This document shows positions 1 through 16,331 of a stretch of 37,744 nt of DNA, in pieces. The stretch covers positions 1-37,744 of the forward strand of contig JACRCE010000079.1 of NCBI GenBank assembly GCA_016213015.1, written 5' to 3'. Origin of the DNA: Deltaproteobacteria bacterium (GTDB lineage Bacteria > Desulfobacterota > GWC2-55-46). The notes under the pieces were generated by a model. The model was not told the DNA's origin. It did not search any database and saw only the letters and a list, made by a program, of their open reading frames with translations. Both the position numbers and the translations under genes were made by a program. How positions within the stretch are numbered: the stretch's first letter is position 1; the number at the start of each line of letters is the position of its first letter.

Positions 1-487
1 CCGCACGGGGGCGTGGATTGAAACGTGCCGGCCTGCTTGGTTACATCAAACGACAGCGTGTCGCCCCCCGCACGGGGGCGTGGATTGAAACGGAGTCATC
101 GCGCGCAACGCTGGAGAACATTGGATGTCGCCCCCCGCACGGGGGCGTGGATTGAACCGTTACCGGCAGGGCGCGCTCGGACAAAGGGACCAGTCGCCCC
201 CCGCACGGGGGCGTGGATTGAAACAGGCGACAAAGGCGCACACGCGCACGGAACTGCCGTCGCCCCCCGCACGGGGGCGTGGATTGAAACGGCGCTCACG
301 CGGAAAAGGTGGACGCTCTCGAGTGTCGCCCCCCGCACGGGGGCGTGGATTGAAACAAACAGAGGACGAGCGGTTCGGCCACTACCTGCGTCGCCCCCCG
401 CACGGGGGCGTGGATTGAAACGGAGTCATAGCGCGCAACGCTGGAGAACATTGGAGTCGCCCCCCGCACGGGGGCGTGGATTGAAAC
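1..487 (+). CRISPR. CRISPR array, type I-C-like repeats, 5' end cut by window
   Basis: There are eight repeat copies: a partial one at 1-24 and full 32-nt copies at 60-91, 127-158, 193-224, 259-290, 325-356, 390-421 and 456-487. They are separated by seven spacers of 33-35 nt. The repeat starts GTCGCCCCC, forms a stem of CGCCCCC with GGGGGCG around a CGCAC loop, and ends in GTGGATTGAAAC. This is the classic type I-C form, so crRNA transcription should run left to right and the leader and cas genes should lie left of base 1. All full copies are identical except 127-158, which ends GAACC instead of GAAAC. Spacer 2 (92-126) and spacer 7 (422-455) are near-identical. No repeat follows 487, so this is the old, leader-distal end of the array. 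The subtype is inferred from the repeat alone; no cas gene is visible. Confidence 0.97.
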
Positions 488-556: not shown

Positions 557-688
557 TTGAGGTGGGGCTACATACTCAAGAAATTCGACGATTCAAACCA
601 CAGGGAGCTTGCGAAGCGGACGGGATACAGCCTCAGGCGAGTGTATCACATCTTGCGTTCGACAAGGCGCCCGAGCGCGAACTTGTGA
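557..688 (+). pseudogene. Remnant of a Mor-like (Mu-type phage) transcription activator
   Basis: A short frame reads GYILKKFDDSNHRELAKRTG followed by YSLRRVYHILR and a stop at 686-688. The pattern of an acidic/aromatic helix, then NHRELAKRTGYS, then a recognition helix RRVYHIL is that of the C-terminal helix-turn-helix of the phage Mu Mor/C activator family, which switches on middle genes in Mu-like phages. There is no proper start: a TGA lies at 554-556. A neighbouring frame just upstream (about 519-565) carries a charged stretch that could be the preceding part, which would imply a frameshift. The fragment lies directly behind the CRISPR array and overlaps the 3' end of the antitoxin on the other strand by about 40 bases. 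The family assignment is by eye from a short motif, and another HTH family is possible. Confidence 0.5.
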
Positions 689-942
689 AGTACGCTCGAC
701 ATAAGCGTTTGATACGGGATGCCTTCCTCGAAAGCCTTCACGCGAATAGCCTCTATATCCATCGAGGCCATTCGGATGTTGACGTTCTTGTCCTTGCGGG
801 TTTGAGCCTTCGCGTATTGCGCGTAGCGGCGCACCTCGGCTTTCAGGTTCTTTACGGATTTCCAATTGCCCTCTTCGTAGTTTTTTTGAAGCGCCAGCTC
901 CTCTTTGTCGAGTTTGATTTTTTCAGGGTTGATCTTACGCAT
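646..942 (-). CDS. CopG/BrnA-like ribbon-helix-helix antitoxin
   Basis: This 98-residue protein has a charged, Lys/Glu-rich N-terminal half (about residues 1-50), which would be the toxin-binding arm. Its C-terminal half reads VNIRMASMDIEAIRVKAFEE then GIPYQTLMSSVLHKFALGRL. That strand followed by two helices is the ribbon-helix-helix pattern of CopG-family antitoxins paired with BrnT-like toxins. The protein should bind DNA as a dimer, neutralise the upstream-encoded toxin and repress the operon. The ATG at 940-942 lies inside the last codons of the toxin gene (8-nt overlap), so the order is toxin then antitoxin, as in brnTA. The 3' end runs over a phage-like remnant on the plus strand. The function is inferred from family features. 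Confidence 0.8.
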   Translation of the reverse strand: MRKINPEKIKLDKEELALQKNYEEGNWKSVKNLKAEVRRYAQYAKAQTRKDKNVNIRMASMDIEAIRVKAFEEGIPYQTLMSSVLHKFALGRLVERKM

Positions 943-1225
943 CGGTCTTAGCCTCCTTGCGGTAAAGTTTTGCAGCCTTCCGGCTCGGTATTACGGTTTT
1001 TAAGATTATCTCCCTGTCGGTTTCAAAAAAGGGCACAAGCCAGACATATTCCTTCAGCTCGACGACGTACATCCGTTGTCCGGGATATTTTGTCTGGTCA
1101 GGACTGAAGACTATGTCCATCTCTCGGCCGAGTTCAACGATGAGATAAACCTCCTCAAACGAGACCCCCCTTATTTTTTTCAGCCTCTCGTTTTTACCGG
1201 CATCCCATGTGTATCTCTTGTTCAC
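935..1225 (-). CDS. BrnT-like ribonuclease toxin
   Basis: This 96-residue protein begins YTWDAGKNERLKKIRGVSFE, matching the BrnT pattern of an N-terminal W/D-K-N helix followed by GVSFEE. It then has strand segments RMYVVELKEYVWLVPF and a C-terminal IILKTVIPSRKAAKLYRK. BrnT toxins have a RelE-like fold and cleave RNA, and the Lys/Arg-rich C-terminal helix fits that. The start is a GTG (1223-1225) with only a weak upstream ribosome-binding sequence. No better in-frame start is visible, because the nearby ATG is out of frame and meets TGA at once. The antitoxin gene overlaps the 3' end by 8 nt. The IPSRKA ending resembles the BrnT-related subgroup that pairs with CopG-type antitoxins rather than the best-studied Brucella form. 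Confidence 0.8.
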   Translation of the reverse strand: MNKRYTWDAGKNERLKKIRGVSFEEVYLIVELGREMDIVFSPDQTKYPGQRMYVVELKEYVWLVPFFETDREIILKTVIPSRKAAKLYRKEAKTDA

Positions 1226-14689: not shown

Positions 14690-15321
14690 TCAATCTTGTT
14701 TTTCTTCCCAAACTTTTCTTATTTTCTTGAAATGGGCGATGCGCTCGGTAATCTTGCCTATTTCTTTGGGATAGAATTCAAGCATTGTATCGCATAACTC
14801 CAACATCCATAGCCTTCTGCTGTTATTCGGGATAATCTTCACCACATTCGCGTTTGCGATTTGAATTTGGCCCCAGCCGAGCGCGCCGATAGTTAAACAA
14901 TCCCAGTCGAAAAACTCAATTGGGCAAAATGTTACCTTCTCAAACTCCGCCCGCATGCCGTTAATCATGTAGTCGATTTTCAAAAGCGAAAAACAATTTG
15001 TGTCCTCCTCGTAGAAGCGCGACAACCTTTCAACCTATGTCAGATTGGGCATATTGAATTTTGTATCGAGTCGATGTGTTTTAACGTCAACCACTCCGCC
15101 ATAGCGCGCCGCGCGAAGGATGATGAGTATTCATCAACAAGATCGCCAAGAATCGTTTTGAAATTTTCCGCGATAATCTCTTCGATCGCATCGCCAACGG
15201 CGCGTGGGCTGTTTATTGTTCTGGCTGAAAGAAAATTCGTTTGATCATTCAAAAATTTCTTGAGCTTTTTTTCTATGTTCTTCCTATGTGCGTTATTATA
15301 AAAGATTCGACTCTTTTTCAT
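14690..15321 (-). pseudogene. Type II restriction endonuclease, disrupted (PD-(D/E)XK type)
   Basis: The first piece (15321 down to about 15092) reads from MKKSRIFYNN to SFARRAMAEW. The match then continues in another frame as VDVKTHRLDTKFNMPNLT, a TAG at 15035-15037, then VERLSRFYEE and on to GALGWGQIQIAN and KIRKVWEEKQD at 14690. The DVK of VDVKTH is the D-x-K part of a PD-(D/E)XK nuclease centre. So one gene of about 210 codons has been broken by a frameshift, probably with loss of several codons, at 15091-15096 and by a nonsense codon. The start overlaps the methyltransferase stop by 4 nt, as in a coupled R-M operon. The partner is intact, so the cell can lose cutting activity safely. The endonuclease family is from recalled motif similarity; the recognition site is unknown. 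The segment is visibly AT-richer than its neighbours. Confidence 0.85.
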
Positions 15322-16331
15322 ACAAGTTTGTCGTTGAATAAATTCTTCGTCATCTCGATTTTATGTTTCTTTCCGTTGCCGTTCATCTGCACGTTAAGCG
15401 TATTTCTTTCCCAAAAAATTCCGTCGGAATATCCTTGTATAGTTTTATCTTGCAGCGCATTTTCCAAGCGTTTTTCGGCCAAACAACAATACAATTCATC
15501 AATATCTATCCCGACATATCGGCGCCCCAATTTTTGCGCGACAACGGAGGTTGTGCCGGCGCCTGAAAACGGATCAAAAACAACGTCATCCGGCTTTGAA
15601 CTTGCCAAGATTATCTTTGCTGCGAGTTTTTCCGGTTTTTGGGTCGGGTGGTCCGTGTTTTCAGGCATGGACCAAAACGGAAGGGTAATGTCCGTCCACA
15701 CGTTTGATGGGTGAGTAATCCTATATTTTCCATCGCCATTATCTTCCCAGTCTTTAGGTTTTCCATTCTCATCATTGTATGGCGCAATAACCCTACGCTT
15801 TATCTTTACCGCCTCGACATCGAAATGATAGTTGTCGGATAAGGTGCAAAACCAAATATCTTCGCAACAATTTTTCCAGTTTGATTTTGCGCCGCGTCCC
15901 TTTTCCCGTTCAAAAACAATGCGATTGCGAATTTGAAAATACCTTTTCGCTACGTTAAAGATTGCGCCGGACGATGTCCAATCGCCACAGATATAAACCG
16001 AGGCGTTAGGTTTTAAGAGACGAATAATTTTCTGCACCCAGGAGTTGAGCCACTCCTCGTATTTTTCGGATTCCATTGCCTTGAACGAAGTCAGATTGAA
16101 CGTCTTATTCAGATTGTATGGCGGATCGACAAAGGCCAAATCAACAAAACTATTCGGCAGATAATTCAATGCCTCAAAAACATCTTGATGTATCGTCTTG
16201 TTTTCAATCTCGCTCAAAGATACGGGTTTATCCAATCTGATTAAACGTTTTTTGAGCCGCGCAATATCCGTATCATTCAGGGTTATGGTGCGATTTCGCG
16301 GCGCCCTTTGTTTGTTTATTGCTTCTTTCAT
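15318..16331 (-). CDS. DNA methyltransferase of a type II R-M system (beta class, likely N6-adenine)
   Basis: The protein has 337 residues. Catalytic motif IV is DPPY (69-72, in AFVDPPYNLN), and the S-adenosylmethionine-binding motif I, DPFSGAGT (253-260), comes later. The order IV, target-recognition region (about 130-225), X (HPTQKP, 228-233), I is the beta class. DPPY usually marks N6-adenine methylation; a few such enzymes methylate N4-cytosine. It appears complete. Its ATG has AGGGAA just upstream. The downstream endonuclease is broken, so the enzyme is now a solitary methyltransferase that may only mark the genome. Lower GC than both flanks and a dispersed repeat immediately upstream suggest acquisition by transfer. 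Confidence 0.93.
   Translation of the reverse strand: MKEAINKQRAPRNRTITLNDTDIARLKKRLIRLDKPVSLSEIENKTIHQDVFEALNYLPNSFVDLAFVDPPYNLNKTFNLTSFKAMESEKYEEWLNSWVQKIIRLLKPNASVYICGDWTSSGAIFNVAKRYFQIRNRIVFEREKGRGAKSNWKNCCEDIWFCTLSDNYHFDVEAVKIKRRVIAPYNDENGKPKDWEDNGDGKYRITHPSNVWTDITLPFWSMPENTDHPTQKPEKLAAKIILASSKPDDVVFDPFSGAGTTSVVAQKLGRRYVGIDIDELYCCLAEKRLENALQDKTIQGYSDGIFWERNTLNVQMNGNGKKHKIEMTKNLFNDKLV

Follow-up and report, generated by a model that had tools for sequence, protein, structure and literature searches.

Two spacers of a type I-C CRISPR array from a deltaproteobacterial genome, the oldest one and a more recent one, very probably stem from two separate uptakes at one site of a mobile element that circulated in two variants. 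The window, i.e. the whole stretch of DNA that was analyzed, is a complete contig of 37,744 bases (contig C46 of genome G000) and comes from a draft genome of 2.27 Mb in 117 contigs. The nearest match of the MutS protein of this genome is found in a deltaproteobacterial metagenome genome, GWB2_55_19 (59% identity), and the lineage is uncultured.

The array fills bases 1-487 of the window and comprises one truncated repeat, seven full 32-nt repeats and seven spacers (Table 1). As the contig starts within the array, the assembly lacks its leader side. The repeats belong to the 32-nt GTCGC...GCGTGGATTGAAAC class, whose spacers measure 33-37 nt, which places the array in type I-C. An ORF called mechanically across the array (25-951) was discarded as an artefact of the repeat units of ~66 nt.

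Table 1. Components of the CRISPR array at the left edge of the window
Feature	Position	Strand	Remark
Truncated repeat	1-24	+	Contig edge, leader-side continuation unassembled
Spacer 1, 35 nt	25-59	+	Most leader-proximal of the visible spacers
CRISPR repeat GTCGCCCCCCGCACGGGGGCGTGGATTGAAAC, 32 nt, type I-C-like	60-91	+	Same class beside the cas operon in relative G021
Spacer 2, 35 nt, GGAGTCATCGCGCGCAACGCTGGAGAACATTGGAT	92-126	+	Newer of the two twins; carries C at base 9 and one additional 3' T
Variant repeat, end GAACC instead of GAAAC	127-158	+	
Spacers 3-6	159-192, 225-258, 291-324, 357-389	+	Separated by repeats; no relation to the twin pair
Repeat ahead of spacer 7	390-421	+	
Spacer 7, 34 nt, GGAGTCATAGCGCGCAACGCTGGAGAACATTGGA	422-455	+	A allele at base 9; last, oldest spacer
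Terminal repeat	456-487	+	Followed by unique sequence, hence trailer end

The relative G021 carries a complete type I-C operon (cas5d, csd1/cas8c, cas7, cas4, cas1, cas2) directly before an array of the same repeat class, upstream of it and on the same strand. Csd1 is encoded by the same contig as the array in G021, G037 and G057. Since the operon of G021 is located upstream and since degenerate repeats are found at the right end of the array in G004, G021 and G037, the window array has its leader on the left, with spacer 7 as its oldest spacer. A search of the 2.27-Mb draft genome itself gave no match to Csd1, Cas1 or Cas7; the contig breaks within the array, where the operon would lie. Therefore, an assembly gap is more likely than a true absence of the cas operon. 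By analogy with the relatives, the machinery of the window array is probably a type I-C Cas4-Cas1-Cas2 set.

Solitary I-C-like repeats are also found outside arrays, both in the source genome (C100:2862-2893, C41:1792-1826, C59:6955-6989 and C112:31030-31061) and in relatives (L011, L012, L013, L014, L016, L017 and L022). Several of them sit shortly upstream of what look like gene starts, including one in G010 that precedes an undecaprenyl diphosphate synthase-like start, and the flank of a solitary repeat is common to G016 and G008. A control search with the reversed pattern retrieved none. These solitary repeats could be lone repeat units or a dispersed repeat-derived element. Just past the array, a short ORF (557-688, plus strand) weakly resembles the end of the Mor transcription activator family, with a score below the threshold, and is perhaps a remnant. 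Positions 646-942 and 935-1225 (minus strand) give weak matches to a CopG-type antitoxin and a BrnT toxin, both below the Pfam cut-off, and this pair beside the array is a probable BrnT/BrnA-like toxin-antitoxin system. The window also encodes an N6/N4 DNA methylase of restriction-modification type (15318-16331, minus strand).

Spacers 2 and 7 agree at 33 of 34 aligned bases; base 9 is C in spacer 2 and A in spacer 7, and spacer 2 is one T longer at its 3' end. They have the PAM-side end in common, and their far end varies by one base. Since the second-best pair among the seven spacers of the array matches at 16 positions only, this likeness is not due to chance. Spacers 3 to 6, located between the twins, are unrelated to one another and to spacers 2 and 7. 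Furthermore, spacers 1 and 6, which are neighbours of the twins, are dissimilar and no spacer follows spacer 7; hence, the twins are part neither of a collinear block nor of an adjacent pair. Unit duplication is expected to yield letter-identical copies of equal length, and spacers 2 and 7 are neither. Within their own genome, the only two places matching them with at most three mismatches are the spacers themselves, and this genome is therefore without self-target. The sequence-only reading had given the letters, the coordinates (92-126 and 422-455), the C/A SNP and the extra 3' T of the pair, all of which proved exact when the sequence was read again; its statement that four unrelated spacers lie between the twins is borne out by pairwise comparison of the spacers.

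The origin of the pair was tested on 63 arrays of the same repeat class and from the same phylum, which contain 2,339 spacers. To count as a twin pair, two spacers had to be in register on one strand, with an offset of no more than 1 and an overlap of 30 nt or more. The survey contains 52 twin pairs, 36 identical and 16 with mismatches (SNP twins); two of these 16 pairs have one spacer in common (G119 spacer 142). Adjacent copies or collinear blocks account for 19 of the 36 identical pairs, and the other 17 are dispersed, as are all SNP twins (16/16 versus 17/36, Fisher p = 0.00013). Equal length is found in 18 of the 19 adjacent or block duplicates, all of them letter-identical, and this constitutes the signature of duplication; G077 spacers 293-296/298-301 are an example of such a block. 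The only adjacent identical pair with unequal length (32 versus 36 nt) is formed by spacers 3 and 4 of array L128 (G109:C25), which are identical over 32 bases. Lengths are unequal in 12 of the 16 SNP twins, a proportion matching that of unrelated spacers of one array (0.67-0.70). Moreover, the PAM-side end is common to 15 of the 16, with variation at the far end, as in spacers 2 and 7. Since SNP twins are dispersed, mostly of unequal length and aligned on the PAM side, whereas duplicates are letter-identical, we read spacers 2 and 7 as the result of re-acquisition and not as a mutated duplicate. Judged by sequence, the pair would carry every feature of the re-acquisition class.

Re-sampling of sites is also shown by ten opposite-strand pairs in the survey, as unit duplication cannot yield them. 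For instance, spacer 3 of array L048 (G004:C12), in the same family, is over 32 bases the reverse complement of spacer 5 apart from two mismatches; one site was thus sampled on either strand and in two variant forms. In addition, G284 has two further SNP twins on two different contigs, one of them also unequal in length. A one-base difference at the end of a spacer could in principle also come from mutation within the array. Only one pair with internal indels exists in the survey, and the length differences are therefore not explained by indels within arrays. Under re-acquisition, the cell lineage would have met two sequence variants of one mobile element at different times. The Cas adaptation machinery would have chosen the same PAM-adjacent end twice, and the far end may have been cut one base apart at the two uptakes, giving spacers of 34 and 35 nt.

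A mechanistic extension of these two acquisitions, which is not a competitor to them, is escape followed by replacement: a mutation of base 9 of the target would have deprived spacer 7 of its effect, and primed adaptation would then have added the changed site as spacer 2. The base-9 change may have weakened spacer 7, and imperfect (primed) recognition may have promoted the new uptake. We regard this scenario as possible rather than probable. In 13 of 16 non-redundant SNP twins, cross-contig ones included, the SNPs lie on average in the PAM-proximal half (binomial p = 0.02), a lean that is not significant by the rank test (signed rank p = 0.056) and to which several twins per genome contribute. 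Mismatches between twin spacers, which come from G077, G229, G119, G235, G309, G367, G087, G431 and G284, are most often located at bases 7-16. This PAM-proximal lean weakly suggests selection by interference. The classical seed consists of bases 1-8, and base 9 lies just beyond it, which speaks against an escape mutation. So do 11 identical-sequence pairs of different length, which correspond to re-uptake without any change of the target. Unchanged sites are re-sampled about as often as changed ones, and since they are re-sampled too, a target mutation is not needed for a second uptake. In favour of escape, type I-C arrays of Legionella carry older spacers with mismatches in the PAM or seed and newer, perfect spacers at overlapping sites (PMC5071653). 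As a general proposal, that target escape shapes same-site re-acquisition in type I-C arrays, with SNPs concentrating PAM-proximally (bases 7-16), is tentative and rather doubtful.

As for the origin of the pair itself, the repeat-spacer unit of spacer 7 may have been copied within the array by replication slippage or recombination and then modified by a substitution and a one-base insertion. Block and adjacent copies do occur in the surveyed arrays, where 18 pairs are identical and of equal length. However, this route requires that one unit was copied over four others, or that a block copy was followed by a deletion, in addition to the SNP and to the end indel. Besides, no SNP twin is adjacent or in a block in the 63 arrays, genuine duplicates agree in every letter and internal indels hardly occur. 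Therefore, duplication within the array is very unlikely here. Recombination is known to occur between arrays, and if two strains had each taken up the site, it could have brought both spacers together and would derive the two alleles from two lineages, but it adds an event with no gain in explanation. Neither a donor array nor a closer relative harboring this same array was found among 59 relatives or 48 genomes of the order, and we consider this origin highly improbable. An assembly artefact, in which strain-variant reads of a single spacer were placed twice, is scarcely credible in spite of the 117-contig draft and the contig break within this array, as the sequences next to the two copies are unique and differ on either side, and twins of the same kind are also present in near-complete genomes made up of large contigs, such as G077 C1 (3.66 Mb).

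No protospacer of spacer 2 or 7 was found in IMG/VR with the full spacer carrying either allele, its 20-mer core or degenerate-codon patterns, in genome contigs queried with a 24-mer, in phage and plasmid records compared with spacer 2 by blastn, or for either allele in 48 genomes of the order with up to three mismatches. The best hits of the degenerate patterns have 16-23 of 35 bases in common, which is the level expected by chance. Likewise, no target was found for spacers 1, 5 and 6 among phages, for the codon pattern of spacer 6 in IMG/VR, or for three twin spacers of relatives in viral collections. A match to the Dam methylase of phage SEN4/SEN5 (E = 0.6) was rejected as due to chance, its frame having a stop in the spacer 7 allele. 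The SNP leaves the encoded residue unchanged in two of six frames; this was also dropped as a sign of a coding target, since 77% of the single changes possible in this spacer are silent in one or more open frames. TTC is the usual type I-C PAM (PMC8482600). A mobile element as the source of spacers 2 and 7, and a PAM beside their base 1, are inferred. The sequence-only reading expected protospacers with the two alleles and a TTC-type PAM, and none appeared in the viral, phage, plasmid and genome collections searched. Its proposal that two uptakes shared a PAM-side end is supported by the comparison with the 63 arrays, whereas the phage or plasmid origin, the TTC PAM and the escape stay at the level of proposals.

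The spacer 2/7 pair is a known and fairly ordinary phenomenon, which had been correctly recognized from the sequence. In Legionella pneumophila ST222, a type I-C array carries overlapping spacers of different age against LME-1 (PMC5071653, Fig. 7B). The explanation put forward there is primed re-acquisition, with an escape variant as the source, and the study also mentions single arrays in which spacers are the same or overlap (PMC5071653). The type I-C repeat of Legionella (GTCGCGCCCCGTGCGGGCGCGTGGATTGAAAC) is of the same kind as that of the window array, and in both cases an older and a newer spacer correspond to one region, with mismatches in the older one in Legionella. Unlike for the window pair, the target element is known in Legionella and the mismatches affect the PAM or the seed, whereas the change is at base 9 here. 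In a single array of Ca. Methanomassiliicoccus intestinalis, sp59 and sp63 differ by one mismatch and one extra nucleotide, and an opposite-orientation overlap is also found in this array (PMC6336856). That host is an archaeon with another CRISPR subtype, and the pair was mentioned in passing without a test of its origin. Desulfofustis carries reverse-complement spacers for one phage protospacer (PMC10370329). As in the window, one site was independently re-sampled, but from opposite strands, with an identical target and known phages. Repeated spacer blocks are conventionally taken as duplication (review PMC8047081); block duplication also gives repeated spacers, but as identical and usually contiguous copies.

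The window pair can thus be viewed as a further natural record of a host that encountered one invader in two variants. The survey provides a rule: SNP twins of unequal length with a common PAM-side end point to re-acquisition, whereas identical copies of equal length that are adjacent or in blocks point to duplication. This rule offers a simple way of mining target polymorphism from arrays, for which the target itself is not required. If target escape does shape same-site re-acquisition, arrays would also record the target positions that are important for interference in nature.
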